From IMG/VR virus record IMGVR_UViG_3300047463_000290, positions 1 through 40,755 of that record: 40,755 nucleotides of DNA. The stretch is one strand, 5' to 3'. Shown in pieces: positions 4,236 through 36,920 of this stretch; position 1 is the first letter of the stretch, and the number at the start of each line of letters is the position of its first letter. The stretch is from a virus. A program made the translations under genes and the position numbers. The notes beneath the pieces are model-generated. The model was not told where the DNA came from and searched no databases. It saw nothing but the letters and a program-made list of their open reading frames with translations.

Positions 4236-5578
4236 GTTTGCGCGGCGATCATTCCCACCTCCAGATTCGTGCTGGTTGAAAGAATGGTCGGCGTTGGGAG
4301 TTGAGTTGTCTCACATAATCCAGTCAAACCCACCGATTGCTGCCAATCACTATACGCATAGGGAAACTGCACGGGGATTTCACCTAACCATTGACGAACA
4401 GTTGTCGCGTCTGCTGAAGACATCTCCAGCAGACGTGCGGGATTGTACAGGACGACGGTCGGCTTCCACGAGCGCCACGTTCCTGACTGGATTGTATCGG
4501 CCCAGAACTTTGCACGCAAATCCATCGGCTGCTGTGCGTGTTCAATGGCTTCAGCATTACTGTCCACTCCCGCAATACGAATATCCGGTCTGTATATAGT
4601 TAGACGACGAAGCAACATTCCATTTCCACACCCCAAGTCCAGCACCCGAGCGTTCTGTGGAATCTTATGATACAGCGCCTCGATCATCTCTTTGTGTGCT
4701 TGGCGCATTCCATCCGCATTCTTGAATCCGTTGTCAGTCCACCATGTCTTCTGTGGCTTGAAGTACGTACCCTGACGCTCGAACGTCTGTTTCGTGGGTG
4801 TCCAATCACTTCGCGTCGAAATTTTGAGAGCGGGCGACACAATCTCCGCAATACCAAATAGTCGCGACCACTGCACGGGCCAGTTCAAGATTTCGCGAGT
4901 CGCAATCATCTCTTCGATGAACCCATGCTTATATCCGAGGTCGTACATACGCTTTCCAATTTCCACGGACGCTTCGCATTGATGCGAACACGGCATGTGC
5001 GATACCAAACGAATACCCATCCAGCGAAACAGTGTCGAAGATTCTGGTGGTCCGTTTGGTGCCGTTCCTTCGTGCGTTTGCTCCCATGTGCTATCGACTT
5101 GCCCGACACCCCATGTCTTGTGGAACGCTGTGCGGCAACATTCTGGATATCCAAGAAGAGTCCCGAGCTTTTCGTTATTGTGCAAATCAAACGCATCGTG
5201 ATAATGTTCAGGGCGCACATACAGGACATGAAACGCATCCTGCGAACCCACCGTCGTGCCGAGATTGACAGACGAGTAATTGTTATTCTTGACTGTGCGT
5301 GTGTACGGAAGACAAACGATGCCGTGCGCTTGCGCCCATTCGACACACTGAATGAGCGTATCGGCACTATCTACCGTTGTGCGCGCCGCAGGACGCAATC
5401 CTTCAACAACAGACAGACGTTCAATCTCGTGCCATGCATTTGACGTAGCTGTGAAAATAGGGCGCCACCAGTCGCGCTCCACCATTCCTGCCCATGCCCA
5501 TCGAGTCCAATCCGGTAAAATGGGTTTCCAATCTACCGCATTATTTGTAGTCTGTGTGGTCACCGTGTCGATCTCCAT
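4232..5578 (-). CDS. Two-domain protein: Cys-box (DUF483-like) domain plus SAM-dependent methyltransferase
   Basis: About 448 residues from the ATG at 5578; a GTG at 5617 with GGAAG upstream would add 13. Residue numbers here use the GTG. The N-terminal half has two cysteine boxes, GYPECC (about 156-161) and PCSHQC (about 209-214), a pattern I associate with DUF483-type domains of unknown chemistry. The C-terminal half is a class I methyltransferase: VLDLGCGNG (motif I, about 325-333), then GVDSN (about 350-354, SAM ribose-binding acidic loop) and VVLYNPARLL (motif IV region). The substrate is not evident. The gene overlaps the 3' end of the radical SAM gene, so the two are translationally linked and probably act on the same target. 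I infer a role in modifying a virion peptide; DNA or small-molecule methylation is not excluded. Confidence 0.75.
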   Translation of the reverse strand: MEIDTVTTQTTNNAVDWKPILPDWTRWAWAGMVERDWWRPIFTATSNAWHEIERLSVVEGLRPAARTTVDSADTLIQCVEWAQAHGIVCLPYTRTVKNNNYSSVNLGTTVGSQDAFHVLYVRPEHYHDAFDLHNNEKLGTLLGYPECCRTAFHKTWGVGQVDSTWEQTHEGTAPNGPPESSTLFRWMGIRLVSHMPCSHQCEASVEIGKRMYDLGYKHGFIEEMIATREILNWPVQWSRLFGIAEIVSPALKISTRSDWTPTKQTFERQGTYFKPQKTWWTDNGFKNADGMRQAHKEMIEALYHKIPQNARVLDLGCGNGMLLRRLTIYRPDIRIAGVDSNAEAIEHAQQPMDLRAKFWADTIQSGTWRSWKPTVVLYNPARLLEMSSADATTVRQWLGEIPVQFPYAYSDWQQSVGLTGLCETTQLPTPTILSTSTNLEVGMIAAQT

Positions 5579-6878
5579 GTCTATCGCCGTGTACTTGACT
5601 ATTGTCGGCGTGATCACTTATCTTCCGAAGCGGGGAATTCGCGTTTGCCTCTCGATCATGAATAATTTGAACAAGAGACGGTAGTGTCGGTATTGATTGT
5701 TGCGACGACCAGATTCGATAGGCTTCTTTTTCCATCTCTATTCGATTCGGATAATCGCACAACGGTACAATCCCGACCGCACGCAAACGCTTCGCACCTT
5801 CCGCGAAGAGCTTTTTATATGTCGCACAATACGATGATCGCATCCGCCAATCGTTATTACTGCCTTCACCGGGGCATTGTCCATAACACATGAGCCAATA
5901 TTCGCACCCCTGACAACCACCATGTTCTTGTGGGGTCACATAAAGTGCGAGTTGACGCTCAAAGTGTTGCGAACCCGGCCATCCGATGAAGTTAGTATAC
6001 CCATACTGCGTATCACCGCTTCCTTCTGCTGGCAGCCAGTTGACACCATCTTTATTTGTGCGGGAGCAATGCGACGGTGAACCGTCATTCTCAATACCCT
6101 TGACGGCACTGGTATTCCACGGATCGCATGGCTTCCAATGACACACCACTTGATCCGCATTTTTGTGCTCGGGATCGAGTAATTTAATGATCTCCTCTAA
6201 CTTTGTGATTTTGATATTGGTGAACGGCTCGTCCCAAAGTTGTATGAGTCGATCTGACAATTCGTCTGTTGGCAAATAAAGAGAGTCCGCTTCGTGATCC
6301 AGTTCCATCACATGCAGATTGACGTGCTTGACGCCTCGCGCGTCGAGTTCATGCAACCACGCAAGAAAGCGTGGCCAGCGTTCTTTGCTCGCGTTGCCGG
6401 CGTGCAGAGTGATGATGAACGACGGCATCAAATGCGGGTATTCTTTCGAGCGTTCGATCAGTCGATTGATTGCCCAATGCGTGCGTGCTGTCTGTTTGCG
6501 TGTGGCTTCGAGCGTTCCTGCCCAACGACTATCGTTCAATTCATCTGGCCCATCCAGCGAGATGCCGATGTGCGTGCGGTACTTGATGAATGCCTCGATA
6601 TGTGCGTCCGTAATCAACGCGGCGTTCGTCTGAAGCCCCGAGGAGCCGCTCTTCTTGTGAGCAATACTCAAAAGCTCTTCGATGTCTTTGAGGGGGAGAA
6701 TGAGGCACTCGCCACCAAACAGAGAAAAATGATCTTTGGGTGCGAGTTTATCAATAGATGCCAAGACGGCTTCACGGTCGTACCGATGGGTACGCTGTTT
6801 CTGCCGCATACCTTCTTCATAGCAATAGGTACATTGAAGCTGGCAACTGACTCCAACTGGGCGGACTTCAATACTCAT
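5541..6878 (-). CDS. Radical SAM/SPASM peptide-modifying enzyme with a His-x-Asp tail
   Basis: A 445-residue protein. The radical SAM cluster motif CxxxCxxC is at C12, C16 and C19 (CQLQCTYC), with FGGE at 54-57 (the GGE motif) and GISLDGP at 105-111. The C-terminal cysteines fit a SPASM domain that holds auxiliary Fe-S clusters: C251 and C271, then C322-x2-C325-x5-C331-x3-C335 and C351 (GCQGCEYWLMCYGQCPGEG). Radical SAM/SPASM enzymes typically install crosslinks or epimers in ribosomal peptides or mature sulfatases. Residues 422-445 contain five H-x-D triplets (HAD, HGD, HGD, HGD, HTD), the same motif as in three virion proteins here. The start has AAGGG five bases upstream. I see no RRE recognition domain and no separate precursor peptide. 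That the HxD proteins are substrates is inference. Confidence 0.88.
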   Translation of the reverse strand: MSIEVRPVGVSCQLQCTYCYEEGMRQKQRTHRYDREAVLASIDKLAPKDHFSLFGGECLILPLKDIEELLSIAHKKSGSSGLQTNAALITDAHIEAFIKYRTHIGISLDGPDELNDSRWAGTLEATRKQTARTHWAINRLIERSKEYPHLMPSFIITLHAGNASKERWPRFLAWLHELDARGVKHVNLHVMELDHEADSLYLPTDELSDRLIQLWDEPFTNIKITKLEEIIKLLDPEHKNADQVVCHWKPCDPWNTSAVKGIENDGSPSHCSRTNKDGVNWLPAEGSGDTQYGYTNFIGWPGSQHFERQLALYVTPQEHGGCQGCEYWLMCYGQCPGEGSNNDWRMRSSYCATYKKLFAEGAKRLRAVGIVPLCDYPNRIEMEKEAYRIWSSQQSIPTLPSLVQIIHDREANANSPLRKISDHADNSQVHGDRHGDRHGDHTDYK

Positions 6879-7109: not shown

Positions 7110-10100
7110 CTACTCGTCGAGCGCGATAGCACGGAAGTTGCGCACGCGTGGAATAATGGTCGTATCGTCGCTGGCCATCACCACCTTGACGGCGAACACC
7201 TTGAAGCGATCCGTTGTATCCCCGCTTGCGTCAAATGCCCGATTGTTGGGCGTGCGGAACTCGAACTCACGGAACTGGTTCGGTCCGTTGCTCTTGACCG
7301 AATCGTTGGTGACTTGCGTCATGAGACGCCAGTTCTGATCCTCGAAGCGTGCGGTGTCTGCGGTACCCGGCAGCACCTTGTAGTAGACGTAGAAGTTCGT
7401 CCCCGCTGGGCGCACCGCATCAAAGTATACCTTGATATCGCGGGCGTCAAACCCATCGGCCAACGTTACCTGACGCGTGAAGTACCGTGCTAATCCATTC
7501 CCCGATGACGTGAAGTCTTCACTGTGATACAGCATCGAGGCGCCGTTATTGGTATCCGAGTCCGGCACCGTGATTGTTGGCGATGTGATGTAGCCGCTAC
7601 CTGCACTCGTCACAACCACACCCGTCACCCTACCGCTGGCGTTAGTGCTGCTCACACCAGAAATAACGGCATACGCGGCGGCGGTTTCACCAACATTGCT
7701 GGTGCTAATCGTCAGTGACAAGTTTGCATACGTCGCGTACGCGTTTGCAGAACGAGTATCTGCGGGAAGTGCAGTTGTAGTAAATGAGGTGTCGTTTGCA
7801 ATTGTCGCGACAGTCACAACAAGGTTGCCACCGATAACTACATCACGTCCAACGATCAATGTCGAAAGGAACGCGGTACCAGAACCCGTCACCGTATTTG
7901 ATGACGTGCTACACGAAACGGTACCAGTATACGCTGCTGTATTGGCGTATCCCGTTCCCGGCTTCGTGATGACGAACTCGGTGTTTGACAATCCCATGTT
8001 GTTGATGAGATGACGGATACCCACGACGTTCATCTTCTTCAAGTCAATCGACGGCGCAACATCCGTGCTGCGCGTGGTCAGCGTGATCAGGGCATCAATC
8101 GTGTTGGCAGAGATACCATTCACCACTGTTCCTGTTGGTGCAGAGGTGCTGATGGACGGGTAAAAGACCGGCACATCACTCTCGAACTGTCCTTGCACAA
8201 ACGACCGTGCGGCCAATGTGTATTCTTGGTTCGGGTAGACATCATATGCGACAGCAACCGCCGCATCTTCCGGCTTCACCGCAACGCTGTATGATGTTGA
8301 CGTGGTGTTCGGGAACACTGTTTCATACGGATAGAACACCAAGCTATCCAACGTCTGCGTCTGTGTTGGAAGAATGCCTCGCGCAGAGAGAATGCCTGTA
8401 TTTGCGCCGTTGTCTACATTCCATGTCGCGCGGTTCAGACGGAATGCCAAGTCTTCAAACGGCGATTCCGTCCACGTCGAACCATTCTGCGACTTGAAGA
8501 AGCTACCCGCATACGGCTGCTTCGACACCTTTTGTGTCGTGCCCGGAATGGTTCCGCCAAGTTCCGCCGTCCAGACTGTGTATTCCGCAGAGTCGGAACG
8601 CACAACCACCGCGTATTCGACACCCGGCATCAAATGCACGAGCGACGGGAACGTGAACCGTGTATAGAACTGGCTGTTGCTGAATGCACTGACGACATCC
8701 GTATCGGATACCGTATTGACGGCATCTGGCCGAAGCGTGACCGATGCATCACCCGATGCAGAAATTGTCGGCACCAACTGATGCGACGATGGATAGCCGT
8801 TCACCACCGGACGAAGTTCAACGGTGACGGGGATGTCGAATGCAGGTTTGGATGCAAACGCCAGATCCAACGACTGCACCATGACACCTTGTGGATACCG
8901 TGCCGCATCCACAAGGAATGTTTCGGCAAGCGGGTCCGCCCATCCTTCTGGGCACGCAGTATAAGTGCCGTTGTCGTAGAGACGTGTTTCGCGAACCCCA
9001 CGACGTGTGACATTCACAGTCCGGCTCGTGACAGAGAAGTTTTGTTGTGTTACGATTAGCCCCGATGAAACATAGTTTGTTTCAGCGGTCGTAGTCGCGG
9101 AGGCAATATCGTTCGTGTTACTATCGGTGAGTCGGAACATCCGAGCGCCTGTGGCGAACTGACCTTCCTGAAGATGTACAACACCCGCGCACGTACCAGC
9201 ACCCGCAGCCGTGACGGTGCTGTTGGCCAAGAATCCTTCAGCGACCAATGCACCGATGCTGTAGATAGTTTCACCCGCTGTGATGTCGATCAGCGTGCTG
9301 CTGTTGATTACCGCAGTCTGATTTGCGGTGAAATAATTCGTAATCGTCGCACTCTGTCCCGCACCCGGGCCACCAACAAAGTAGATCACCGCACCATTCG
9401 CGACCTTTGCGTCAGTCACGTCCAGATCCAAACGCAAGTTGTTTGTGCTGTAATCGCGCACCACACCAGAGACGATGACAGCAGAGTTGACGTTTAACGA
9501 CGCTACAACTGAGTTACGTCCCGTTGCAGGCACCAACAAAGTGGCTCCCGCAGAATTCGTACCAGAATCTTTTGCGTTCTTTTCTGGGCGCAAACTACCT
9601 GCACGAATCGCATATGGAATTGCTTCGTCCGCATCTGCGTCACGGTTTGCACGGACCACCTTCAAGGTATAGGCAACCGTGTTTCCGCTATATCGTGGCG
9701 TGATATCCGCAACTGTGACGGCCGTCAACGTAAAGAGATTCGCAGTAGTGAGCGTAACCGGCGCGGTGCTCAACAGTGTCGCAACGGTATTGTTCGAGGT
9801 TGCGCTGATATAGCGGTCGAAAATATTGACACCCGATTCTACGCGCACCAACTGATTGGCAAGAAGCTCAAAGTCGAACTCCGTGCCGTTGCCGGTAATC
9901 GTCGCTGAAGCCGATGCGGTATTGACCGTGCCGGTGAAGGCTTTCTTCACATAGACAGTCTGTCCAATATAGAAAGTGGGCGCATCCACTAAATCAACGG
10001 CATCAAGACGCAGTGTGTTCGCTTGCTGTACATATTTCTGTACGTCGGTACCGTCAAAGAATGGATAGAGGTTCGCGGCTGGGCGCAATCCACTTGCGGC

Positions 10101-10244
10101 AAAGACAACATCGCGGCGACGAGCACTATGAACCACAGTCGTACCCACCACCATATTACCGAAAGATATTGACTGTGGTTCAGATTGAAACTCAAAGCGT
10201 GTGCCCGTGCGCTCCTGAACGTAGGATGAAACAATTTGAGACAT
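7110..10244 (-). CDS. Large tail/baseplate-associated protein (C-terminal part of a DUF4815-type protein)
   Basis: A 1044-residue protein. The middle (WADPLAETFLVDAARYPQG, SLDLAFASKPAFDIPVTVEL, RPVVNGYPSSHQLVP) matches the C-terminal half of DUF4815-type tail proteins of T4-like phages, where it normally follows the N-terminal 'SRELTQLQ' half in one polypeptide. Here that N-terminal half is encoded by the gene just upstream (10259-14182). The start (SFGNMVVGTTVVHSARRRDVVFAASGLRPAANLYPFFDGTDV) is a typical linker to the receptor-facing half. Several Thr/Asn/Ala-rich beta repeats follow (VSGVSSTNASGRVTGVVVTS). The C-terminal segment contains a jelly-roll-like 'NNRAFDASGDTTDRFKVFAVKVV' and ends IIPRVRNFRAIALDE. 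The Shine-Dalgarno AGGA is ahead of the ATG. It is probably part of the baseplate rim or a fibre network; exact position is inference. Confidence 0.7.
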   Translation of the reverse strand: MSQIVSSYVQERTGTRFEFQSEPQSISFGNMVVGTTVVHSARRRDVVFAASGLRPAANLYPFFDGTDVQKYVQQANTLRLDAVDLVDAPTFYIGQTVYVKKAFTGTVNTASASATITGNGTEFDFELLANQLVRVESGVNIFDRYISATSNNTVATLLSTAPVTLTTANLFTLTAVTVADITPRYSGNTVAYTLKVVRANRDADADEAIPYAIRAGSLRPEKNAKDSGTNSAGATLLVPATGRNSVVASLNVNSAVIVSGVVRDYSTNNLRLDLDVTDAKVANGAVIYFVGGPGAGQSATITNYFTANQTAVINSSTLIDITAGETIYSIGALVAEGFLANSTVTAAGAGTCAGVVHLQEGQFATGARMFRLTDSNTNDIASATTTAETNYVSSGLIVTQQNFSVTSRTVNVTRRGVRETRLYDNGTYTACPEGWADPLAETFLVDAARYPQGVMVQSLDLAFASKPAFDIPVTVELRPVVNGYPSSHQLVPTISASGDASVTLRPDAVNTVSDTDVVSAFSNSQFYTRFTFPSLVHLMPGVEYAVVVRSDSAEYTVWTAELGGTIPGTTQKVSKQPYAGSFFKSQNGSTWTESPFEDLAFRLNRATWNVDNGANTGILSARGILPTQTQTLDSLVFYPYETVFPNTTSTSYSVAVKPEDAAVAVAYDVYPNQEYTLAARSFVQGQFESDVPVFYPSISTSAPTGTVVNGISANTIDALITLTTRSTDVAPSIDLKKMNVVGIRHLINNMGLSNTEFVITKPGTGYANTAAYTGTVSCSTSSNTVTGSGTAFLSTLIVGRDVVIGGNLVVTVATIANDTSFTTTALPADTRSANAYATYANLSLTISTSNVGETAAAYAVISGVSSTNASGRVTGVVVTSAGSGYITSPTITVPDSDTNNGASMLYHSEDFTSSGNGLARYFTRQVTLADGFDARDIKVYFDAVRPAGTNFYVYYKVLPGTADTARFEDQNWRLMTQVTNDSVKSNGPNQFREFEFRTPNNRAFDASGDTTDRFKVFAVKVVMASDDTTIIPRVRNFRAIALDE

Positions 10245-10258
10245 AGATTTCCTGATCG

Positions 10259-13200
10259 TTAATATGGGGCGGTGCTAGGTAGTGCTGGGCTTCCGGCAGC
10301 TATCCATTCTTCCCAATCCTTATATCCGTAAGCACCCGCCTTGAGATCCTGACCCTTAAATATTCTCCATTCTTGGCCATTATATTCGTCCTGCGCTGGC
10401 GGTGGATCTGGAATCGTGGTGTATCCCGTCCACGTTGTCTGCCACTCACCCCAATTCGTATACGCGGGCAAGAACGAATCCACCCACGCTTGTGAGGGAC
10501 CACCCAAATCCACAACCTGTGCTGGACGCGTGTCCGTAGACTTCCACGTATCCACAGCGGGCGACAGTTGAATCTTTCCGTAGAATGCGCCGATATCGAA
10601 CGGATTGACGGACACCGCGTGTGTTGCGGTTGGCTGTGTGATGAAGTCGGTCACCTCATACGTCGGCACCACCATGTCGCCCACGATTTTCACACCACTA
10701 GTGGTTGAGTCTGCGTAATCCGTCGCAAACTGCATCGCAAACGTGCGATAGCTCGGATAGAGTTGATGATTGCGCGTGTCCAATGACGCCGCAAAATCTC
10801 CGCGTGCCAAATCTGCTACAGTTCCATCAGTGAATGCATCAACAAGAATACCGTTTTTGAACCGTTCTTGATTGTCGGCATCAGTTTCTGATTGATTCAG
10901 AGTATTTTGTTCAAGCTGCGTAATCGCATTATAGTATTCCAAACGCGACACACGATTCTCGATACGCGACAAATCGTTCATCGTATATCGCTTATAATCG
11001 TAGGATTTCAGTACAACACTTGATGGCACACCAATATCGTTCACCAATGTATACGGTGGTATACTCAACTCAAACATCAACAAACCAGAACCTTCGACCT
11101 GTGGGGTCTTGGGTGTGCGTGACGACTGCCCCTTCGTGACGTGGAATTCTCCATCGGTGCCGAGCGATACCACATCGCGACGGCCAAGATAGTAGTCGTA
11201 ACTACCATTCCAGATATCGTCAGACACCGGAATGAGATACGTGGTGCCGTCAGACACCGCATACGATGTATTGGCACTGTTATCCGTGGATGCAAACACC
11301 AGTGCCACATTGCCGTTTGCAGCACCGTAATGTCCTTGTGCTGGTCGGAAGTCCAATACAGAACGCAGACTTACACTTACGGCGCTACCAAATTTTACTG
11401 ATCGATAGTAGGGAATGTCGTCGTAGGTCATACCCTTGTCGATATTCTGATTGCTCAAGTAGCTGTCAAGGGTAATGTATCCACGGCCAGAATGCATGAA
11501 GTGATCGAAGATGAACAGCAACCGACCTGTTGGTGCGATCACGTTGCTGGCCGATGCTTTGACAATTGCACGCCCATAGTCGTAGCTATTATCACGTTGA
11601 CCTGTATCAAGCGTAAAGTAAGTTGTTACATCGGTATATCCTGATGTGATGCTACCAGCAAACGCAGTATTGCTGCTGTTGTACAGCACCTTACGGAGCT
11701 TTGTCACGTCGTGTGTGCGCAACGAGTAGGCAAATCCCGTTGCGACATTGAGCGTATGGTATTCAACCTGTCCTGCGGTCAACGCTGTCGTGGTGTTCGC
11801 TTGTGCGACGGATGTATTACCCACGACGTAGGTCTTTGTCCGAATCGACTGCCCCGTGACGAGACTCTTGGCAATTGCCACCAATGTGCGTGGATTGCTG
11901 GTCGTTGAGCCGTGATGGTATGTAAGCGTAACGGTGTACTGGCTTCCCACCGGCGAACCCGAGGCAGCGACACTGACATTCGATACGGCACGCTGATCAG
12001 CGGGCACCGAATCCGCAATCTGAATCACCTGTCCACGTCCTACAGCATCAGCCGTGATGTCAAACACGAGGAAATAATCGCGGGCGGCGGATGCGGAGAA
12101 TGTGCCTTCAGGAATACTGAACGCCCCGCCGGTGAAGGTGAGAATGGTAGTATTGGTATTCGCAGACGTGAGGGAAACAGTCGCGTTGGTTGATGAGATC
12201 CACGTCGAAAATTCTGCGTTCGCGATATCAATGGTTCCTGCGTCGATAAACTGTTCAGGAATCTGATAGAACAACTTGTTGTCATTCGTATCAAACACAA
12301 TCGTTGGTCCTGTTGGCGTGCCGTCAGTTTTTCCACTCGGTGCAACATCCGCTTGAAATGCGAGATTGTTGGTATACGGAGGGTTCAACGACAAACTGGT
12401 GGGTGCAGCAAGGCCACCCGACAACAGCGTGAACGAATCCACGTCTTTCGGCTGGAACAACAACCGGAACGTCGTATTGGTGGTTGGAAGCACCGTCAAG
12501 TATTCTTTCAGAACGATATTGGCATACGCGCCGGGCACATCGTTTTCGGCGAGATATTGATCAATCGTGAAAGTTCCTGTAACCGGAGAACTGGCACCTT
12601 CAAGAATGACAGACGCCCCGACAATTGCGCTACTTACATCGGGTGTTCCATTTGCAACGGGTACTTTAATATGTACCTGCCCGTTAACAATATCGGCACT
12701 GGTTACGGTACCCGTCAGCGTATTCGCGAAATTCCAATCGTAGACGAAGAGCTTGTACACGCTGCTGTTTGCGAAGTCACCAATTGCCAATTCACTTGGA
12801 ACTGACTCCGTTTCCACCATTCGGACTTTTGCGGTACCGACTTTGGAATGCTGATACACATCGTTACTTGCGGTATTGATGGTGGCAGCATTCAAACAAT
12901 GAATGTCAACGGTATTCAAGCCCACAAAGTAGGTGTTGGGAATGTCCGCCAACACACGAGTCGCGAGCACGTAGTTGCCGACAGCGGCGGCGATAGAGCG
13001 ATTGTTTGCGCTCTCGGTATCGCGCGCCTTGTCGATAGTCAACCGAATCGGCGCCAGCGACTCGACTTCAAACCCTCGCACATACGCCTTTCCAGACGAC
13101 AGCGACAGACGGAAGTTTGTCAAATCTTCCGAATTGCTAGTGTTGGCGTTTGGATTGCCGTCAATCACGGGAATAAACGGACGCAGAATGTAGCTTCCCG

Positions 13201-14182
13201 ACTCATCGTACGTGCGACGAGCGAGCGTCTGCTTCAGTTCTTCGGCGGTAATGAACTTGGGATTGGCCCGAGTGTAGATCACCTGACCGTCAATGACACG
13301 GGCAATTTCGATGAAGTTTGTATCGGCGGACGATTCAATCGAACGTTTTGCCAACGTCAAGCTGATACGGAAACGGTGCGCACCGACCGCGCCGCGATTC
13401 GCTTCATCCAGCAACGTTTCCCCAACGGTGACATCAGGATCGGCACCAATGACTTCACTCAACTCATCAAGAAACTCTTCGTTGACGACGACGCCGATAC
13501 GGTACGACGGCGCGTTATCGAACGCATCCAACACAATAGTCTGCGGCCGCACGCGCACGTACAGCCCAGAAACGAACATCACACCTTCGTCAATACTGAT
13601 CGTCGAAGCATTGTGGAACACCGTGGTGTTCGCGCCCGCAGCGAACGTCCCTGTTACGGTGTCGTCATCGCGGCCCTGAATGCTGCCACCAGCACCAAAC
13701 AGATTCGTACTCGTGTACTTGAAGATGAGGTAGTTGTTCGTGGTCTGCGATTCACCAGAAATTGCGGCATCATCAATCGAGACATACTGTGTAATGTGCG
13801 CGGCGGTCGTGTAGTCTGCGACACCGGCAACCCGCGCATACACGTACAACCCGGAATTGTTGGTGCGGTCAAAGAAGCTCTGAAGGTTCGTTGAAGGGGT
13901 GACCTGTCCACTGATGGCCGCGGTATCAATCGTCAGTTGTGCGCCGAGAATACGGTCGCCGTCACGGAACTGTGCGGTGCCCAGTCGCTCCATTTGTGCT
14001 TGCAGGAGCGTCTGCAACTGCGTGAGTTCGCGCGACTGAACGCCATACCGGGGGCGGAACAAAATGCGATGAAAGTCGAAGTCCTGCCCGCGCAGCAAAC
14101 CCGTCGCGGTATTGGCAACTTCATAGAAGTCGTCGAAATACTCTGTGCGGAGTGCATTTTGTGTTGTGTTACTGAGTGCCAT
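10259..14182 (-). CDS. Large DUF4815-type tail protein (N-terminal half)
   Basis: About 1307 residues. I chose the ATG at 14180-14182 (MALSNTTQNALRTEYFDDF) because AACGAGA lies 7-10 bases upstream; a TTG further out has no such site. The N-terminal FHRILFRPRYGVQSRELTQLQ (about residues 37-57) with QMERLGTAQFRDGDRILG is the recognisable DUF4815 signature of large T4-like tail proteins. The middle includes QIPEQFIDAGTIDIANAEF and a YTLVNDIGVPSSVVLKSYDYKR / MNDLSRIENRVSRLEYY segment, a conserved helix-rich stretch. The C-terminus is Trp/Pro-rich with a WEEWIAAGSP end. It lies in the T4 gene 9/10/11 region after gene 8, where wedge-attached trimers and fibre connectors are found. That placement is from gene order, not from sequence identity. 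Confidence 0.75.
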   Translation of the reverse strand: MALSNTTQNALRTEYFDDFYEVANTATGLLRGQDFDFHRILFRPRYGVQSRELTQLQTLLQAQMERLGTAQFRDGDRILGAQLTIDTAAISGQVTPSTNLQSFFDRTNNSGLYVYARVAGVADYTTAAHITQYVSIDDAAISGESQTTNNYLIFKYTSTNLFGAGGSIQGRDDDTVTGTFAAGANTTVFHNASTISIDEGVMFVSGLYVRVRPQTIVLDAFDNAPSYRIGVVVNEEFLDELSEVIGADPDVTVGETLLDEANRGAVGAHRFRISLTLAKRSIESSADTNFIEIARVIDGQVIYTRANPKFITAEELKQTLARRTYDESGSYILRPFIPVIDGNPNANTSNSEDLTNFRLSLSSGKAYVRGFEVESLAPIRLTIDKARDTESANNRSIAAAVGNYVLATRVLADIPNTYFVGLNTVDIHCLNAATINTASNDVYQHSKVGTAKVRMVETESVPSELAIGDFANSSVYKLFVYDWNFANTLTGTVTSADIVNGQVHIKVPVANGTPDVSSAIVGASVILEGASSPVTGTFTIDQYLAENDVPGAYANIVLKEYLTVLPTTNTTFRLLFQPKDVDSFTLLSGGLAAPTSLSLNPPYTNNLAFQADVAPSGKTDGTPTGPTIVFDTNDNKLFYQIPEQFIDAGTIDIANAEFSTWISSTNATVSLTSANTNTTILTFTGGAFSIPEGTFSASAARDYFLVFDITADAVGRGQVIQIADSVPADQRAVSNVSVAASGSPVGSQYTVTLTYHHGSTTSNPRTLVAIAKSLVTGQSIRTKTYVVGNTSVAQANTTTALTAGQVEYHTLNVATGFAYSLRTHDVTKLRKVLYNSSNTAFAGSITSGYTDVTTYFTLDTGQRDNSYDYGRAIVKASASNVIAPTGRLLFIFDHFMHSGRGYITLDSYLSNQNIDKGMTYDDIPYYRSVKFGSAVSVSLRSVLDFRPAQGHYGAANGNVALVFASTDNSANTSYAVSDGTTYLIPVSDDIWNGSYDYYLGRRDVVSLGTDGEFHVTKGQSSRTPKTPQVEGSGLLMFELSIPPYTLVNDIGVPSSVVLKSYDYKRYTMNDLSRIENRVSRLEYYNAITQLEQNTLNQSETDADNQERFKNGILVDAFTDGTVADLARGDFAASLDTRNHQLYPSYRTFAMQFATDYADSTTSGVKIVGDMVVPTYEVTDFITQPTATHAVSVNPFDIGAFYGKIQLSPAVDTWKSTDTRPAQVVDLGGPSQAWVDSFLPAYTNWGEWQTTWTGYTTIPDPPPAQDEYNGQEWRIFKGQDLKAGAYGYKDWEEWIAAGSPALPSTAPY

Positions 14183-14233
14183 TCGGTGTCTCGTTGTGGA
14201 TAGAGTCAATTACGGGAACAGAATATCTTGTCA

Positions 14234-25581: not shown

Positions 25582-25588
25582 TATTTAC
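25582..25588 (-). promoter_or_regulatory. Possible late promoter element GTAAATA before the M15 fusion gene
   Basis: Minus strand: GCGTAAATAGAGATATATG. It differs from CTAAATA at the first base, and the spike gene stop TAA (25585-25587) is embedded. Seven bases separate it from the ATG. Weaker than the CTAAATA sites. Confidence 0.4.
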
Positions 25589-27675
25589 GCGGTGGGTGAT
25601 TTGGGAATGGTGGGATTCGCCACGTCAGGACGCGCGAGCGAATCGGTGAGATCAAACAACGTGAAGGACGTGCCACCAAGTGTCATGCTTGGACTGAACG
25701 AGGCTTGTCCACGATAGTCATCTCGATTGAGGTATTTAACCAACGGCAAGGATGCTGGCGCAACAAGACCCGTCTCGGGTTGTGTTAATCGGCCTTCCAA
25801 CGGGGGTTCCACGGATGGGATATCACCAAGTGCCACACACGTTTCCTTGTGCGCTTGATAAAGTTCCGTATCACCCACTTCTTCAGGCGCCTCAAAGAGC
25901 AGCGCACGATATGACACCGCGGCGGGCGTCGTCGCGTAGTAGACCAGTGGATTGCCTAACGGATTTTTCTTCGGCATCTGATCTTCCGTCAGCACCGGCG
26001 GCTTAATCGTTGGTGGCGCTTGCGCGTCTGTGCCACCGCCGCCCACGTCACCTTCGGTGCTCAACTGCTCGTGTGCTGGTGCGCCTGCCAATCCGTGCAA
26101 CGGGAAGGGACCGCTCTGCAACAGATTCAACATCGTGATGGTGTTGAGAAGATTTTTGGCAGCGGTCTTACCAACTTTCGCGCCGGCGCCCGGGGGCGTG
26201 AGGGCCTTCGAGTCTTCAATGATGTTTTTCACACCTTCACTGACGAGTTTTGCGCGAGCAGCGGCAAGTTTACCGCGATGTTCCGCATCCTTCGCTTCAA
26301 GCAATGTATATGCTTCTTCATAGTCATCTTTGATAGCCGCCATGTTGATACGCGGCGCCCACCCATTCGTGGTCCACACCGGCGCACCGGGGAGCTTCAA
26401 ATAACGCAAATCAATTTCGGTGCCATCTGCACTGAATGTTGTCGAAGCGTGCATATTGATATCTTCCCCTGCCCAAACGTGGAATTGTTTTTCTGCACGT
26501 AGGTGCATGTTGCCGTCTGAGTGAAGATGAATTTCTCGCTTTGAATGGGCGCGCACATCTCCCTCGGCAGCAATATGACATTCACCCTTTGCCACCAAAT
26601 GAATGTCACCGTGACTGACGATGTTTTGATTGCCCATCGACGTAATGACAATTTCTCCTTTCGGATGAATCTCGATACATGTGCCTGAACGATGAAAGAT
26701 GTGAAGACGTTCCGCGCCCGGTGTGTTGTCCATTTCACATCGGTGCCCGGCTTCCGTTTCGATGACGTTGTTGTATGGATTCTGTGGCGCGGCCGGTGTC
26801 GTTGGTTCGCTCCAACTGGATTGATTTTTGCGGTCCTTGAAAACCATGTTCAACTTGACGTTGAATCCCGGTTGGAGCTTAAAGCCGTAGAGGAGGTCTG
26901 TTTTCTTGGGAAGCAATCGCGCCCAACTGCTTGGCTTTCCCATGGCTTTCACTACGCCCTTGATGGTGTGCTTCTTCTTATCCTTGTGAATCGGATCGTC
27001 TTTGAACGCGTCACCACCTTGTGCGGCGCGAGACGAACTAGGAACACCGACTTGATCTTTCCGAGGATAGGGTTTACGGTTGTAGTTCTCCTTGATAAGT
27101 GGACCAAATGCGGAAAATCCATTGAGCGATACGGAGAAGCGCGTCAACATGTTTGTGAGCTTCTCTTTGCGCTGTGCAAGTTGAATGGCTATCGCCGCGG
27201 CCGCCGCGGTTCCTGCAATTGCCGCACCGGGTTTCAGCGAGGAGAACTGCACTAAGTCTGATGCAGAAAAGAAACCACCCGCGGCGACAGACGCAGTGCC
27301 TTCCATTCCGAACACACTGACATCTTTCTGAAATGTCTTTCCGCTTAACAGACCGGCACTTGCGGCATCAAATGCGATTGTAGCGGCACTCAATGATGCA
27401 GTGAGCGTCCCGAGCGACTTCTTGGCTTTAAGGGCAGAATTGATCGCACCAAACGCCGCACCAGACATCGCTGCCGCTTTCGCCACATTACCAAGCGCCT
27501 TACCGAACTTGGGCTTGGAGGGTGGTGGCGTGCGACTTTCTGGTGGCTCTGGACGAAGTGCGGTTTCTGCGGGCGTGCTTCGATCCCGACCGCCATGCTT
27601 CTGAATCACCGCATCAGCAATAGCGGCGGCAGCACTGGCGGTAGCGAGAGATACGGCACTCTTAACGATTCCCAT
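25585..27675 (-). CDS. Spike (gp5 C-terminal-like) beta-helix protein
   Basis: A 696-residue protein. Residues 60-170 are Ala/Gly-rich and hydrophobic (AAIAGTAAAAAIAIQLAQ resembles a membrane helix). Residues about 298-425 are the cell-puncturing spike: NPYNNVIETEAGHRCEMDNTPGAERLHIFHRSGTCIEIHPKGE, then short repeats EIVITS, NIVSHGDIHLVAKGECHIAAEGDVRAH, DGNMHLRAEKQFHVWAGEDINMHA. This matches the gp5/VgrG beta-helix pattern. No gp5 lysozyme domain is seen. The C-terminal 200 residues are helical and Pro-rich and I cannot assign them. The reading frame is the same as that of the OB-fold gene just upstream, separated by one TAA and one codon. There is no good Shine-Dalgarno, so translation may depend on the OB gene. 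Confidence 0.75.
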   Translation of the reverse strand: MGIVKSAVSLATASAAAAIADAVIQKHGGRDRSTPAETALRPEPPESRTPPPSKPKFGKALGNVAKAAAMSGAAFGAINSALKAKKSLGTLTASLSAATIAFDAASAGLLSGKTFQKDVSVFGMEGTASVAAGGFFSASDLVQFSSLKPGAAIAGTAAAAAIAIQLAQRKEKLTNMLTRFSVSLNGFSAFGPLIKENYNRKPYPRKDQVGVPSSSRAAQGGDAFKDDPIHKDKKKHTIKGVVKAMGKPSSWARLLPKKTDLLYGFKLQPGFNVKLNMVFKDRKNQSSWSEPTTPAAPQNPYNNVIETEAGHRCEMDNTPGAERLHIFHRSGTCIEIHPKGEIVITSMGNQNIVSHGDIHLVAKGECHIAAEGDVRAHSKREIHLHSDGNMHLRAEKQFHVWAGEDINMHASTTFSADGTEIDLRYLKLPGAPVWTTNGWAPRINMAAIKDDYEEAYTLLEAKDAEHRGKLAAARAKLVSEGVKNIIEDSKALTPPGAGAKVGKTAAKNLLNTITMLNLLQSGPFPLHGLAGAPAHEQLSTEGDVGGGGTDAQAPPTIKPPVLTEDQMPKKNPLGNPLVYYATTPAAVSYRALLFEAPEEVGDTELYQAHKETCVALGDIPSVEPPLEGRLTQPETGLVAPASLPLVKYLNRDDYRGQASFSPSMTLGGTSFTLFDLTDSLARPDVANPTIPKSPTA

Positions 27676-27678
27676 GTG

Positions 27679-28035
27679 TTATGCTCGTGTGTTTTTTTGC
27701 GAACCGACCCCGGGGTCAGTTGGATATGATGGAAACTTACCGAGAATGACAGGTTGCTGGGCCAACTGTGCATCCATAAAAAACCCGAGCACCCAATCAC
27801 CTTCACACAGATCATGGTTTCCGCGCGAATTTGTGACAGGCAGCAATGGTAACGCCCACGGTAAATCGTCGGTGGACAATTTCTCTACATCCGGTTCATG
27901 ATGCCCGAGAATTCGCACCTTACATCGACCGATTTTCAACGGATCACTCGTGCGGTCCTCCACGATGCCAACAAACCAGACGAACCCATCAAGGCCGACG
28001 TGGTACATCATTGATGTAGTTGAACTATCAAGCAT
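27679..28035 (-). CDS. Spike OB-fold domain protein (gp5 N-terminal-like)
   Basis: A 118-residue protein with the OB-fold of the gp5/VgrG N-terminus: GFVWFVGIVEDRTSDPLKIGRCKVRILGHH, LPWALPLLPVTN, EGDWVLGFFMDAQLAQQPVILGKFPSYP. In T4 this domain joins gp27 to the spike. Here it ends with a TAA, then CAC, and then ATG of the spike in the same frame. The upstream gene (28049-29455) is gp27-like, so the order hub, OB domain, spike is kept. I took the ATG at 28035 because GTAAATA with five-base spacing lies before it; Met9 and Met10 are alternatives. Confidence 0.75.
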   Translation of the reverse strand: MLDSSTTSMMYHVGLDGFVWFVGIVEDRTSDPLKIGRCKVRILGHHEPDVEKLSTDDLPWALPLLPVTNSRGNHDLCEGDWVLGFFMDAQLAQQPVILGKFPSYPTDPGVGSQKNTRA

Positions 28036-33480: not shown

Positions 33481-34233
33481 ATGGCACTCCCAACACTCGT
33501 CGTGCCCGAATATGAAGTGACGCTGCTCAGTCAGTCGAAGCCCGTCAAGTTCCGCCCGTACCTCGTTCGTGAGGAAAAGATCCTGCTCATGGCGCAGCAG
33601 GGTGGTGAGAAGAAAGAAATTGAAAACGCCGTCAAGTCGATCATCCGCAACTGCACCTTTGATAAGATTGATCCAGAAAAGTTGCCATCGTTTGACTTGG
33701 AATATCTCTACGTGCAGCTTCGTGCGAAGTCCGTCAATAATATCGTGGAGACACGCTTTGAATGCCAAAATATCGTGCGATCAGAAGCAGAGCGTCAAGA
33801 AAAAGACGATGGACGGTGCCATGCAGTCGTACCGATCTCAATCAACTTGGATGATGTGAAAATTGTGAAACGCGAAAATCACAGCAAGCAGATTCAAATC
33901 ACGCCAGACGTGGGATTAACGTTGCGATATCCAACCGCTGATGTGCTCAATCTTTTGAGTACAGAAGGCGTGACGCCGTTGACAATTCTGAAAGTGCTCG
34001 AAGAATGTATTGAAAACGTGTACACGGCCGACGGTTCCGTGTATGAGTTCTACGATCAAAGCGAAGACGAACGACAGACGTTCATCGACTCGTTGACGGT
34101 AACGCAGTTGGAGGCGATTCAGCAGTTCTTTGATACGATGCCAATCTTGTCGCACACGACCACGTTCAAATGCCCGAAGTGCAACTATACAGAAGAAATT
34201 ACGTTGCAGGGGTTGGAGAGTTTTTTCGGGTAG
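33481..34233 (+). CDS. 26: Baseplate hub assembly protein gp26-like (zero-frame product)
   Basis: A 250-residue protein (T4 gp26 is 208) of the T4_baseplate family, needed for hub assembly. Landmarks: MALPTLVVPEYEVTLLSQSKPVKFRPYLVREEKILLMAQQGGEKKEIENAVKSIIRNCTF at the N-terminus, KLPSFDLEYLYVQLRAKSVNNIVETRFECQN, and KCPKCNYTEEITL near the C-terminus, a CxxC pair that may be half of a zinc site. A strong GAGGTG lies upstream of the ATG. The 3' end carries the frameshift signal at 34221-34256, so two products are expected: this 250-residue form and a 308-residue form. It lies directly upstream of the tape-measure-like gene, where tail-assembly chaperone genes sit in other phages. Confidence 0.85.
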   Translation: MALPTLVVPEYEVTLLSQSKPVKFRPYLVREEKILLMAQQGGEKKEIENAVKSIIRNCTFDKIDPEKLPSFDLEYLYVQLRAKSVNNIVETRFECQNIVRSEAERQEKDDGRCHAVVPISINLDDVKIVKRENHSKQIQITPDVGLTLRYPTADVLNLLSTEGVTPLTILKVLEECIENVYTADGSVYEFYDQSEDERQTFIDSLTVTQLEAIQQFFDTMPILSHTTTFKCPKCNYTEEITLQGLESFFG

Positions 34234-34256
34234 GGCAGAGCCACGAAACTCTGCCC
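34221..34256 (+). promoter_or_regulatory. -1 programmed ribosomal frameshift signal at the end of gene 26
   Basis: Slippery heptamer T TTT TTC at 34221-34227, read in the zero frame as AGT TTT TTC GGG TAG. A 5-base spacer GGGTA (34228-34232) holds the start of the zero-frame stop. A perfect 8-bp hairpin follows: GGGCAGAG (34233-34240), loop CCACGAAA, CTCTGCCC (34249-34256). The -1 frame is open to 34406. Spacer length and GC-rich stem match established -1 signals. Confidence 0.85.
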
Positions 34257-34406
34257 AACTACTACACGTTGAATTTCAATCTCGTGAAACATCATGGGTT
34301 CTCGTTGACTGAACTGGAAGACATGATACCGTTTGAACGAGATATCTACGTTCTGCTCCTTCGACAGTGGCTCGACGAGCAGGAGAAAAACGCAAAACGC
34401 GGATAG
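34227..34406 (+). CDS. -1 frame extension of gp26 (59 residues)
   Basis: Reached by slippage at T TTT TTC; the codon after TTC becomes CGG, giving RVGQSHETLPNYYTLNF then LVKHHGFSLTELEDMIPFERDIYVLLLRQWLDEQEK. Fused product is 249 + 59 = 308 residues. The segment 'KHHGFSLTELEDMIPFERDIY' resembles the small ORFs found after gene 26 in T4-like phages, and also the T-domain style of tail-assembly chaperones in form. An ATG at 34170 in this frame has no Shine-Dalgarno and its first 20 codons just shadow gene 26, so a separate start is less likely. It ends 6 bases before the tape-measure gene. Confidence 0.75.
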   Translation, partial: RVGQSHETLPNYYTLNFNLVKHHGFSLTELEDMIPFERDIYVLLLRQWLDEQEKNAKRG

Positions 34407-34412
34407 GACGCT

Positions 34413-36920
34413 ATGGCCGACAATAAGACGCAACGGCGATTGTCAGACGAAGAAAAGGAAGACCTGAAACGCAAAAAAGATTTTGCGGCACTTGGTGCGG
34501 CCGTTCGAGCAGCGGAACTTCAAAAGACCATTGCAACTATGCCCAAAGGTCTTAAGAAGATGTCCGCTATTCTTGGCGGTGCAACAAACGACATTACGTC
34601 TGAGATGGGTCGCGCGTACGTTGCGGGGTTAACGTCTCTTATCAATAGCTTGGAACAACTTCCACCGCGTTTGTGGAGAAATGCACTCACTGAAGTTGAA
34701 AGTATTGTTAGTTTTGCAGAATCCGACGAACTTTTGAGTGATGAAGACGCACAAAAGATTAAAGCAGTCGGAAGAGAACTCAGCAAAGAAATTGAGCGAC
34801 AGTCAAGTTTTAGTATTCGAGCGGGAAATGTTGTTGCCAGCGGTGTTAAGAAACTCGGAGTTAGCGCACTTGAACGTGGTGCGGGGTATTATGGCAAAGG
34901 TGGCATGTTGGTGCGAGGGCTCTCAAAGCTCGCATTATTTGGCATCGAGCGCCGGCGCGAAACGCGGGAGGCTGGTTCGTCTTTTAGTATATCTCGCGCC
35001 TCTGCGCTGTCGTCAACCGAGAGCGCACGAAACACTGCGGTTCGATACGGTTCCGAGTCTGTTGACGACATGTCACCGTCGCGATTTGGTGGTCGTGGTA
35101 ATGTTGAAGTCGAACAACTTGGTGAACTGAAGAAGATCAACAGCACGCTTGTTCGTCAAATCAAAGTCGCACAAGATATCGACGCCGGTGAGGACAAAGA
35201 AGACGCTCTGCGCGAAAGTCGTGCGGCGTTTACAGGACAAGAAGCCGCACTCGAAGCTCCATCACGTAGACAAGTGACTGCGTTGATGGCACAGCCTGCG
35301 GCGAAGGAAGGTGGATTCTTCTCCTCACTTTTGAATTCGTTTGGTGGATTGGCGGGGATGACGGCAATACTTCCAGAAGTGTTCGAGATTCTAAGTGGCG
35401 CGGCCATCGTCTTCACCGCATGGAAGTTAATGCCAGAAGGATTGAAGACAGTTCTAGGTAAGATCGCAAACAAACTCACTGGTGGTGCATTTGACACCAA
35501 AGACAATACCTCTCAAGGAACGCAACCAACACAAGACAAAGATCAGACGACGACCAATACGGTAGTCCCGCCAGACGAATCTTGGCGAAGTCTTCAACGC
35601 GAAGCAGAACCGTATGGTTACGGATTACGAGCGGCGGCCAATCCAATACGGACCGCAAAATCGCTTTATGGCGCTGGAGCTAATGTTGTAGCACAATCGA
35701 GCAAATTGAAAGGTATGCGGTTGGGATTCGGTGGTGGTAGCCCAACGACTTTGGGAAGCCTTACATCCGAATTAGAACCGTTGACGGGGAATCAAGTAAC
35801 ATCGTATCTCGCTAAAAAATCACTAACTGGTGTTGCCGATCCGGCAATGGAAGCGCGGATACTACAATTCAATAACGCAGGAAAAGCAATTGAAGCTGCA
35901 AAAACGCCAGTTCAATTTGTCTCCGGCGCAGGCAAAGAAGCGTCGTTTCTTGAGCGGGTTGCGGCATCGCGACTTGGTAAATTTGGAGTAGGGGCAGGGG
36001 AGTATTTTGCGAAGTCTCCAACACTCGCAAGATTAGCTAAAGTGAGTCGAGTCGCAGGAAAAAGTATCGGATATCTTGGCGCAGGAATGGATGCGTATGA
36101 CGCATATAAATCAGGATTTTCCTTACGCGGTGGTCTTAAAGGATTGTCCACTGGATTACAAATTGCTGGATTAGTGGGTGCTCCCGAAACTGTGGGGGCG
36201 TCACTGGCGCTCTCCGCCCTCGGTACTGGATTGAGCATGGCGACCGACTACTTCCTACCTGAACCCGGCAGCAAACCATCTGAAAAGGCTGCAACGTCTA
36301 CCACGCCCACCAAAACTACCAGTGCGTTGCCAAGCAATGTCTCATCAGAACTGACACCAGCCCAATTGACGGAAGAACAGATGAATGCGCTGCTCGACGC
36401 ACAGACCCGATGGGAAGGTGGAAAGCCGGGAGACCGCAACATGCGAAATAATAATCCCGGTAATATCAGACGCGGCAAGGACGATTTTGCCGGTAAACAT
36501 GGAGGCATCGGTTACGATGAAGGAGGATATGCGTTATTTCCGTCAAAGGAAGTGGGACGAGCCGCACAACGCGCATTGTGGTTGTCGCCAACCTACCGAA
36601 ACAGACCGCTAACTGAAGCCATCCACCGATGGGCACCTGACGCATCGCCCGGCTATACGTCAGCACTGTTGAGTTCTGTTGGGGCGCCAGCATCATCTGT
36701 CGCAGCGTTGTCGTCAACACCAAGCTACACGCGTTCGGCGCCCGGTTCAAATGCCGGTGGTATGAGTGGTGGGCAATCGATCATCTATAATGCGCCAGTC
36801 ACCAATACGACAGTAGTCGGTGGTCAGGGAACGCCTGCGCCAACCGTCATTCCGATGCCGATTCGCACAGAGCCTATCGAGAACACGCTCCTCGCGATCA
36901 CGCGACTCAACTACGTCTAA
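34413..36920 (+). CDS. Tape-measure-like tail protein with a C-terminal lytic-transglycosylase-like domain
   Basis: An 835-residue protein. The N-terminal part is helical and rich in Ala/Lys/Glu (ADNKTQRRLSDEEKEDLKRKKDFAALGAAVRAAELQK). A hydrophobic segment FEILSGAAIVFTAWKLMPEGLKTVLGKI (about 330-360) could span a membrane. Residues about 655-750 have NNNPGNIRRGKDDFAGKHGGIGYDEGGYALFPSKEVGRAAQRAL, the 'NNPGNIR ... FPS ... G' pattern of muramidase-like tail domains. The position immediately after the frameshifting gene 26 supports a tape measure (T4 gp29 is 590 residues). AGGACG lies upstream of the ATG. A hairpin terminator follows the stop codon. Whether it is a true gp29 homologue is uncertain. 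Confidence 0.65.
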   Translation: MADNKTQRRLSDEEKEDLKRKKDFAALGAAVRAAELQKTIATMPKGLKKMSAILGGATNDITSEMGRAYVAGLTSLINSLEQLPPRLWRNALTEVESIVSFAESDELLSDEDAQKIKAVGRELSKEIERQSSFSIRAGNVVASGVKKLGVSALERGAGYYGKGGMLVRGLSKLALFGIERRRETREAGSSFSISRASALSSTESARNTAVRYGSESVDDMSPSRFGGRGNVEVEQLGELKKINSTLVRQIKVAQDIDAGEDKEDALRESRAAFTGQEAALEAPSRRQVTALMAQPAAKEGGFFSSLLNSFGGLAGMTAILPEVFEILSGAAIVFTAWKLMPEGLKTVLGKIANKLTGGAFDTKDNTSQGTQPTQDKDQTTTNTVVPPDESWRSLQREAEPYGYGLRAAANPIRTAKSLYGAGANVVAQSSKLKGMRLGFGGGSPTTLGSLTSELEPLTGNQVTSYLAKKSLTGVADPAMEARILQFNNAGKAIEAAKTPVQFVSGAGKEASFLERVAASRLGKFGVGAGEYFAKSPTLARLAKVSRVAGKSIGYLGAGMDAYDAYKSGFSLRGGLKGLSTGLQIAGLVGAPETVGASLALSALGTGLSMATDYFLPEPGSKPSEKAATSTTPTKTTSALPSNVSSELTPAQLTEEQMNALLDAQTRWEGGKPGDRNMRNNNPGNIRRGKDDFAGKHGGIGYDEGGYALFPSKEVGRAAQRALWLSPTYRNRPLTEAIHRWAPDASPGYTSALLSSVGAPASSVAALSSTPSYTRSAPGSNAGGMSGGQSIIYNAPVTNTTVVGGQGTPAPTVIPMPIRTEPIENTLLAITRLNYV

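Follow-up and report, generated by a model that had tools for sequence, protein, structure and literature searches.

The gene 26 homologue of this T4-like virus very probably encodes a tail assembly chaperone of two lengths, a short form (TAC-N) and a long form (TAC-NC), the latter made by a -1 slip on the heptamer T TTT TTC. The window, by which we mean the whole stretch of DNA analysed, is the record of an uncultivated IMG/VR virus, 40,755 bases long. The 3' end of gene 26 reads AGT TTT TTC GGG TAG, with TTT TTC as zero-frame codons. An earlier note on this DNA had described here an in-frame heptamer, a 5-base spacer, an 8-bp hairpin and a 59-codon -1 frame, and every one of these details is found in the sequence (Table 1). 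We propose that most ribosomes would stop at the TAG, releasing the short form, and that a minority would slip one base back on the heptamer, the two tRNA-Phe re-pairing with TTT TTT. The slipped ribosomes would then read the -1 frame and give a TAC-NC of 308 residues, with the predicted junction LESFFRVGQ and, at its C-terminus, a helical domain whose homologue lies at the end of T4 gp51.

Table 1. Features of the gene 26 locus, in coordinates of the window
Feature	Position	Strand	Basis
Gene 26 homologue, short chaperone form TAC-N, 250 aa (very probable)	33481..34233	+	PF12322; phrog_150; model resembles HK97 gp13
Slippery heptamer T TTT TTC	34221..34227	+	in frame; T6 in 102/117 non-redundant loci
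Spacer GGGTA, 5 bases	34228..34232	+	read from sequence
Zero-frame stop TAG	34231..34233	+	read from sequence
Hairpin, probable stimulator, lineage-specific	34233..34256	+	fold z -3.85; stem shared with L001, different or absent elsewhere
-1 frame, predicted TAC-C (C-terminal domain of the long form), 59 codons + stop	34227..34406	+	phrog_634; purifying selection; profile match to T4 gp51 207-244
835-aa ORF directly downstream, presumed tape measure gene	34413..36920	+	position and length

Profile searches bear out the identification of the gene as a T4-like gene 26, which the earlier note had also made. Its product matches PF12322 (E 1.5e-58, residues 9-249 on profile positions 2-218 of 219) and phrog_150 (E 1.1e-62), and is less than 60% identical to every phage record listed. 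For the downstream 835-aa ORF, family searches gave no match that would mark it as a tape measure protein; its one PHROG match is a weak one, to an endolysin region. The other window genes belong to T4-like baseplate and tail families: baseplate wedge subunits, tail tube cap, hub lysozyme and DNA end protector. Elsewhere in the window, on the minus strand, a gp5-like hub lysozyme looks split (25585-28035): a 118-aa ORF corresponding to the start of phrog_430 ends in TAA and is followed, without a change of frame, by the CAC ATG of the next ORF, which corresponds to a later stretch of phrog_430; these are either two genes or a case of readthrough. At 7110-14209, also on the minus strand, two adjoining long ORFs match phrog_358 at 7-1151 and 1317-1607 of 2056, and from these matches they look as if a single gene had been split. 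The structural genes also have among them one for a radical SAM protein (phrog_1802, E 1.9e-20), at 5541-6878 and again on the minus strand.

In the 23 window genes checked, the T6 heptamer is in frame at one place only, in gene 26; the 12,633 codons of these genes hold 18 in-frame X XXY YYZ sites (Y = A or T), and TTTTTTC occurs six times in the window over both strands. The conservation of the site among relatives is far stronger evidence than this rarity or the fold z of the window. As a check, the earlier note had proposed to ask whether relatives keep the heptamer, and they do: all 80 of the best 80 among at least 598 confirmed IMG/VR relatives have an in-frame T6 heptamer near the gp26 stop, as does the window. 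The gp26 of one locus, L002, is 100% identical to that of the window, and the two may be the same virus. Six more scans and twelve annotated regions brought the set to 223 loci, in which the window figures a single time, its own copy (L093) having been removed; 185 of these loci have T6; the 38 without it are 18 T4-type loci, 16 S115-type loci, SD25, D528, SUMAE and L223. When the loci were clustered at 90% gp26 identity, 117 non-redundant loci were obtained, T6 being present in 102 and the other 15 consisting of nine T4-type and six Ackermann/D528/SUMAE-type loci. T6 was also found in 11 of 11 further named phages, picked by hand from a spread list of tblastn matches; the heptamer is T7 in phiM7, T6G in phiM9 and RHph_N34, and T6C in P-HM1, ACG-2014d, Mosig, S-CRM01, S-B68, DLP6, D527 and S-SRM01. 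In L223 the gp26 is 99.6% identical to that of phage Mendera, yet the T6 heptamer is lost and the end is longer and different, perhaps through a homopolymer indel, whether real or an assembly error.

The distance from heptamer to stop is exactly 3 bases in 96 of the 102 T6 loci (exceptions 0, -6, -9, -24 and -42). A role of this constant distance as a functional signal is not supported, because inheritance explains the distance and exceptions exist. The codon 5' of the heptamer varies (AAT, GAT, AGT, TCT, GGT) and ends in T in all T6 loci. As this follows from the T6 requirement itself, the useful control is the Phe-Phe pairs elsewhere in the same genes, and only 12 of these 112 pairs have the form xxT TTT TTY.

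To judge from sequence comparison, the -1 frame is a real coding region under purifying selection. Its peptide matches phrog_634 (baseplate hub assembly catalyst, T4 gp51 family; E 3.3e-22, profile positions 61-113 of 121), and tblastn with the 59 residues gave matches in 552 of 50,697 phage records. A profile of 98 -1 frame peptides from other loci, searched against 1394 targets, finds the window peptide (E 2.9e-26), residues 207-244 of T4 gp51 (about 1e-4) and the -1 frame of Salmonella phage S115 (1e-3). The same search gave no match at E 1 among these targets for the -1 frames of SD25, D528 and SUMAE, and the homology of these three is therefore judged from where they lie and from a few motif residues recognized by eye. 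Between the window and L001, gp26 is 66% identical and the -1 peptide 83% identical (pS 0.654, pN 0.076). Across 33 cyanophage-type loci the median dN/dS is 0.075 for the -1 frame (466 of 528 pairs computable) and 0.17 for gp26 (526 of 528). None of 22 annotated regions of named phages (for example L083, L084, L085, L091 and L228) has a joined gp26-gp51 CDS; the -1 domain after gp26 is annotated in these regions as a separate gp51, as a hypothetical protein or not at all.

The stem in the window, GGGCAGAG (34233-34240) with CTCTGCCC (34249-34256), is a perfect 8 bp around a loop of 8 nt (34241-34248), and its first base is the G of the TAG stop. The fold of 34221-34300 has an energy of -25.3 kcal/mol (z -3.85, with 0 of 200 shuffles as stable). 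The hairpin described beforehand therefore stands for the window itself, but it is not constant in relatives. Of the 96 aligned loci, 38 have, at the expected distance, a perfect stem that is 7 bp or longer and includes three or more G-C pairs, where mononucleotide shuffles would lead one to expect 1.6, and the remaining 58 are without such a strong stem; over the 102 T6 loci the mean fold z is -0.98, with values below -2 in 35. The stems also differ in sequence and register between the window and L001, L003, L009, a group made up of L025, L037, L046, L059 and L079, and the cyanophages. In 33 cyanophage loci, chosen with a filter biased towards the stem, pairing holds in 93.6% of cells, compared with 40-66% in slid registers, and no two-sided compensation was seen among these loci, where changes are one-sided or pair-breaking. 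We thus reject the hairpin as a universal stimulator. It seems to be lineage-specific rather than a constant part of the signal, and in the lineage of the window, where it lies 6 bases downstream, it probably raises the slip rate.

The model of the window gp26 (pLDDT 93.0) resembles the TAC-N fold of the HK97 tail assembly chaperone gp13 (2ob9). In VIA-align the best chain is 2ob9 with Z 7.7, a value to be read with the tool's own note that a Z below 8 can reflect a common arrangement; it is followed by 3klu (7.3) and 3fgx (7.2), both of which we take to be tail assembly chaperones, and then by an unrelated chain at 2.5. The likeness covers the N-terminal residues 1-85 of gp26 (rmsd 3.9 over 83 residues, 7% identity), whereas gp26 has about 165 further residues. 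Foldseek alone placed 2ob9 only at rank 15 (E 1.4), and a PDB sequence search with the gp26 and gp51 alignments gave no meaningful match. The VIA-align list for a gp51 model holds no tail chaperone, its best Z being 4.9 to C1QBP, though this protein may have the chaperone fold all the same. The suggestion of the earlier note that the hub assembly proteins of this group are chaperones of the lambda G/GT class gains structural support from the gp26 match.

Poly-T turns up readily in A+T-rich phage DNA, as the six copies of TTTTTTC in the window illustrate, and one might suppose that a chance heptamer here precedes a chance open frame. We give this practically no credence: that 185 of 223 loci keep the heptamer already refutes it, and the low dN/dS of the -1 frame speaks against it as well. 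It is also very unlikely that the -1 ORF is a separate small gene, a short gp51 with its own or a coupled start, and that the T run reflects codon usage only. GenBank records often annotate the ORF in this way, and in CZ01, D527, phiM9, RHph_N34 and S-CRM01 an ATG overlaps the gp26 stop, so that both routes are possible there. However, when the -1 frame is followed from the point where it opens until 45 bases beyond the stop, 43 of the 102 T6 loci offer no ATG, GTG or TTG (24 contain an ATG and 35 only GTG or TTG), and in none of the 102 is the second ORF served by an ATG or GTG whose Shine-Dalgarno matches at 4 or more bases. The window itself has two candidate start codons upstream in its -1 frame, ATG at 34170 and GTG at 34179, both without a Shine-Dalgarno. 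The tblastn matches of the -1 peptide often take in its very first residue, which lies ahead of the starts that are annotated, codon usage elsewhere rarely gives the slippery spelling of Phe-Phe, and in T4 gp51 both parts are joined in one protein. The earlier note had set against a frameshift a separate start with a Shine-Dalgarno and the heptamer gone; such a start, as ATG or GTG, was not encountered in the T6 group. We therefore reject a separate gene for most loci, and keep it as a candidate where the ATG overlaps the stop.

Another reading accepts the shift and takes its products to be hub parts or hub assembly catalysts, not tape measure chaperones. The annotation of gp26 as baseplate hub favours it, as do the genetic studies supporting gp26 in the hub that are reported in the available part of a review (PMC3004832). 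The same part of this review, however, lists gp26 and gp51 as hub assembly chaperones, with gp51 absent from the final particle (PMC3004832), and the match of the gp26 model to HK97 gp13, the short and long architecture and the place before a long ORF also argue against it; we consider this reading unlikely. A short and long chaperone pair of the lambda G/GT kind is instead made very probable by the retention of the heptamer, by the likeness to HK97 gp13 and by the make-up of T4 gp51, which is that of the predicted product.

In T4 the two forms can be recognized as separate proteins. Both T4 gp26 and T4 gp51 match PF12322 (E 8.8e-64 and 3.9e-52), and gp51 also covers the end of phrog_150 as well as phrog_634. 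The predicted fusion of the window aligns with T4 gp51 over its whole length at 22% identity. In a T4-type gp51 model (pLDDT 87.5) the elements come in a gp26-like order and are followed by three helices; the alignment behind it misplaced the last residues of the gp26 rows, and the model was used only for this order. T4 gp26 thus corresponds to the short form of the window and T4 gp51 to its predicted long form, and since gp51 combines a gp26-like part with the -1 domain, T4 makes a short and a long form from genes 26 and 51. Unlike in the window, these are two genes on opposite strands, and the T4-type gp26 keeps the Phe-Phe pair but spells it TTC TTT, which is not slippery, where the window has TTT TTC. 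Most likely the group of the window makes both forms by the shift, where T4 uses two genes.

In S115 and SD25 of the Ackermannviridae (L086 and L092), SUMAE (L089) and D528 (L090) the -1 domain follows gp26 without a standard heptamer, the sites being ATT TTC ATT TAA, GTT TTT CGC TAA or CTT TTC (AAG/AGA) TAA. In S115 and SUMAE the -1 frame lacks an ATG close to where it starts. We tentatively suggest, with somewhat less than even confidence, that a single protein ratio has been given many settings: a near-fixed slip site, hairpins invented repeatedly, heptamer-free sites and the gene duplication of T4. The T4C or T5C run one codon before the stop in Ackermannviridae, D528 and SUMAE might then act by single-tRNA slippage or by stop-start coupling. 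If this is true, the T4-like gp26 family is a natural series of ways to set one ratio.

The idea of a frameshifted chaperone is not new. Vladimirov and colleagues are said to have found the shift conserved in several T4-like groups, with T4 using genes 26 and 51. In the parts of the sources available, poly-T -1 signals in the TAC-N genes of T4-like phages are credited to Vladimirov, Gautam and Davidson, Virology 2022 (PMC12846349), and T4-like phages with one short and one long gene to Vladimirov et al. 2022 (PMC10885494). The idea has been in print since 2022 and the window locus is a further member: gp26 is the TAC-N, a poly-T -1 shift site lies near its end and a long TAC-NC would result. 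It differs from those phages in coming from an uncultivated virus with a divergent gp26. An experimental test of a T4-like gene 26 frameshift was not found in the literature searched, which leaves most subscription journals outside. The available text of Sullivan et al. 2010 (PMC3037559) describes the cyanophage gp51 as being without its first ~200 residues, and a -1 domain that is the frameshifted end of gp26 would explain why they are missing. What cyanophages and relatives are said to have as a short 'gp51, baseplate hub assembly catalyst' is thus very probably the frameshifted end of gp26, with no gene of its own, and a widespread annotation can be corrected in this sense. The loci assembled here also provide a large conserved set in which one can test in what ratio the two chaperone forms are made and which signals determine it.

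In phage lambda, G and GT are a short and a long form that arise by a -1 shift on the heptamer GGGAAAG, close to where the gene preceding the tape measure gene ends. In the window, too, the shift site sits close to the end of a gene, the one that precedes the presumed tape measure gene, with a short and a predicted long form. By analogy, TAC-NC would recruit the tape measure protein via its C-terminal domain and TAC-N would coat this protein until the tube polymerises. The heptamer of the window, T TTT TTC, differs from that of lambda and gp26 is larger, and the likeness drawn here between the two systems is one of layout.
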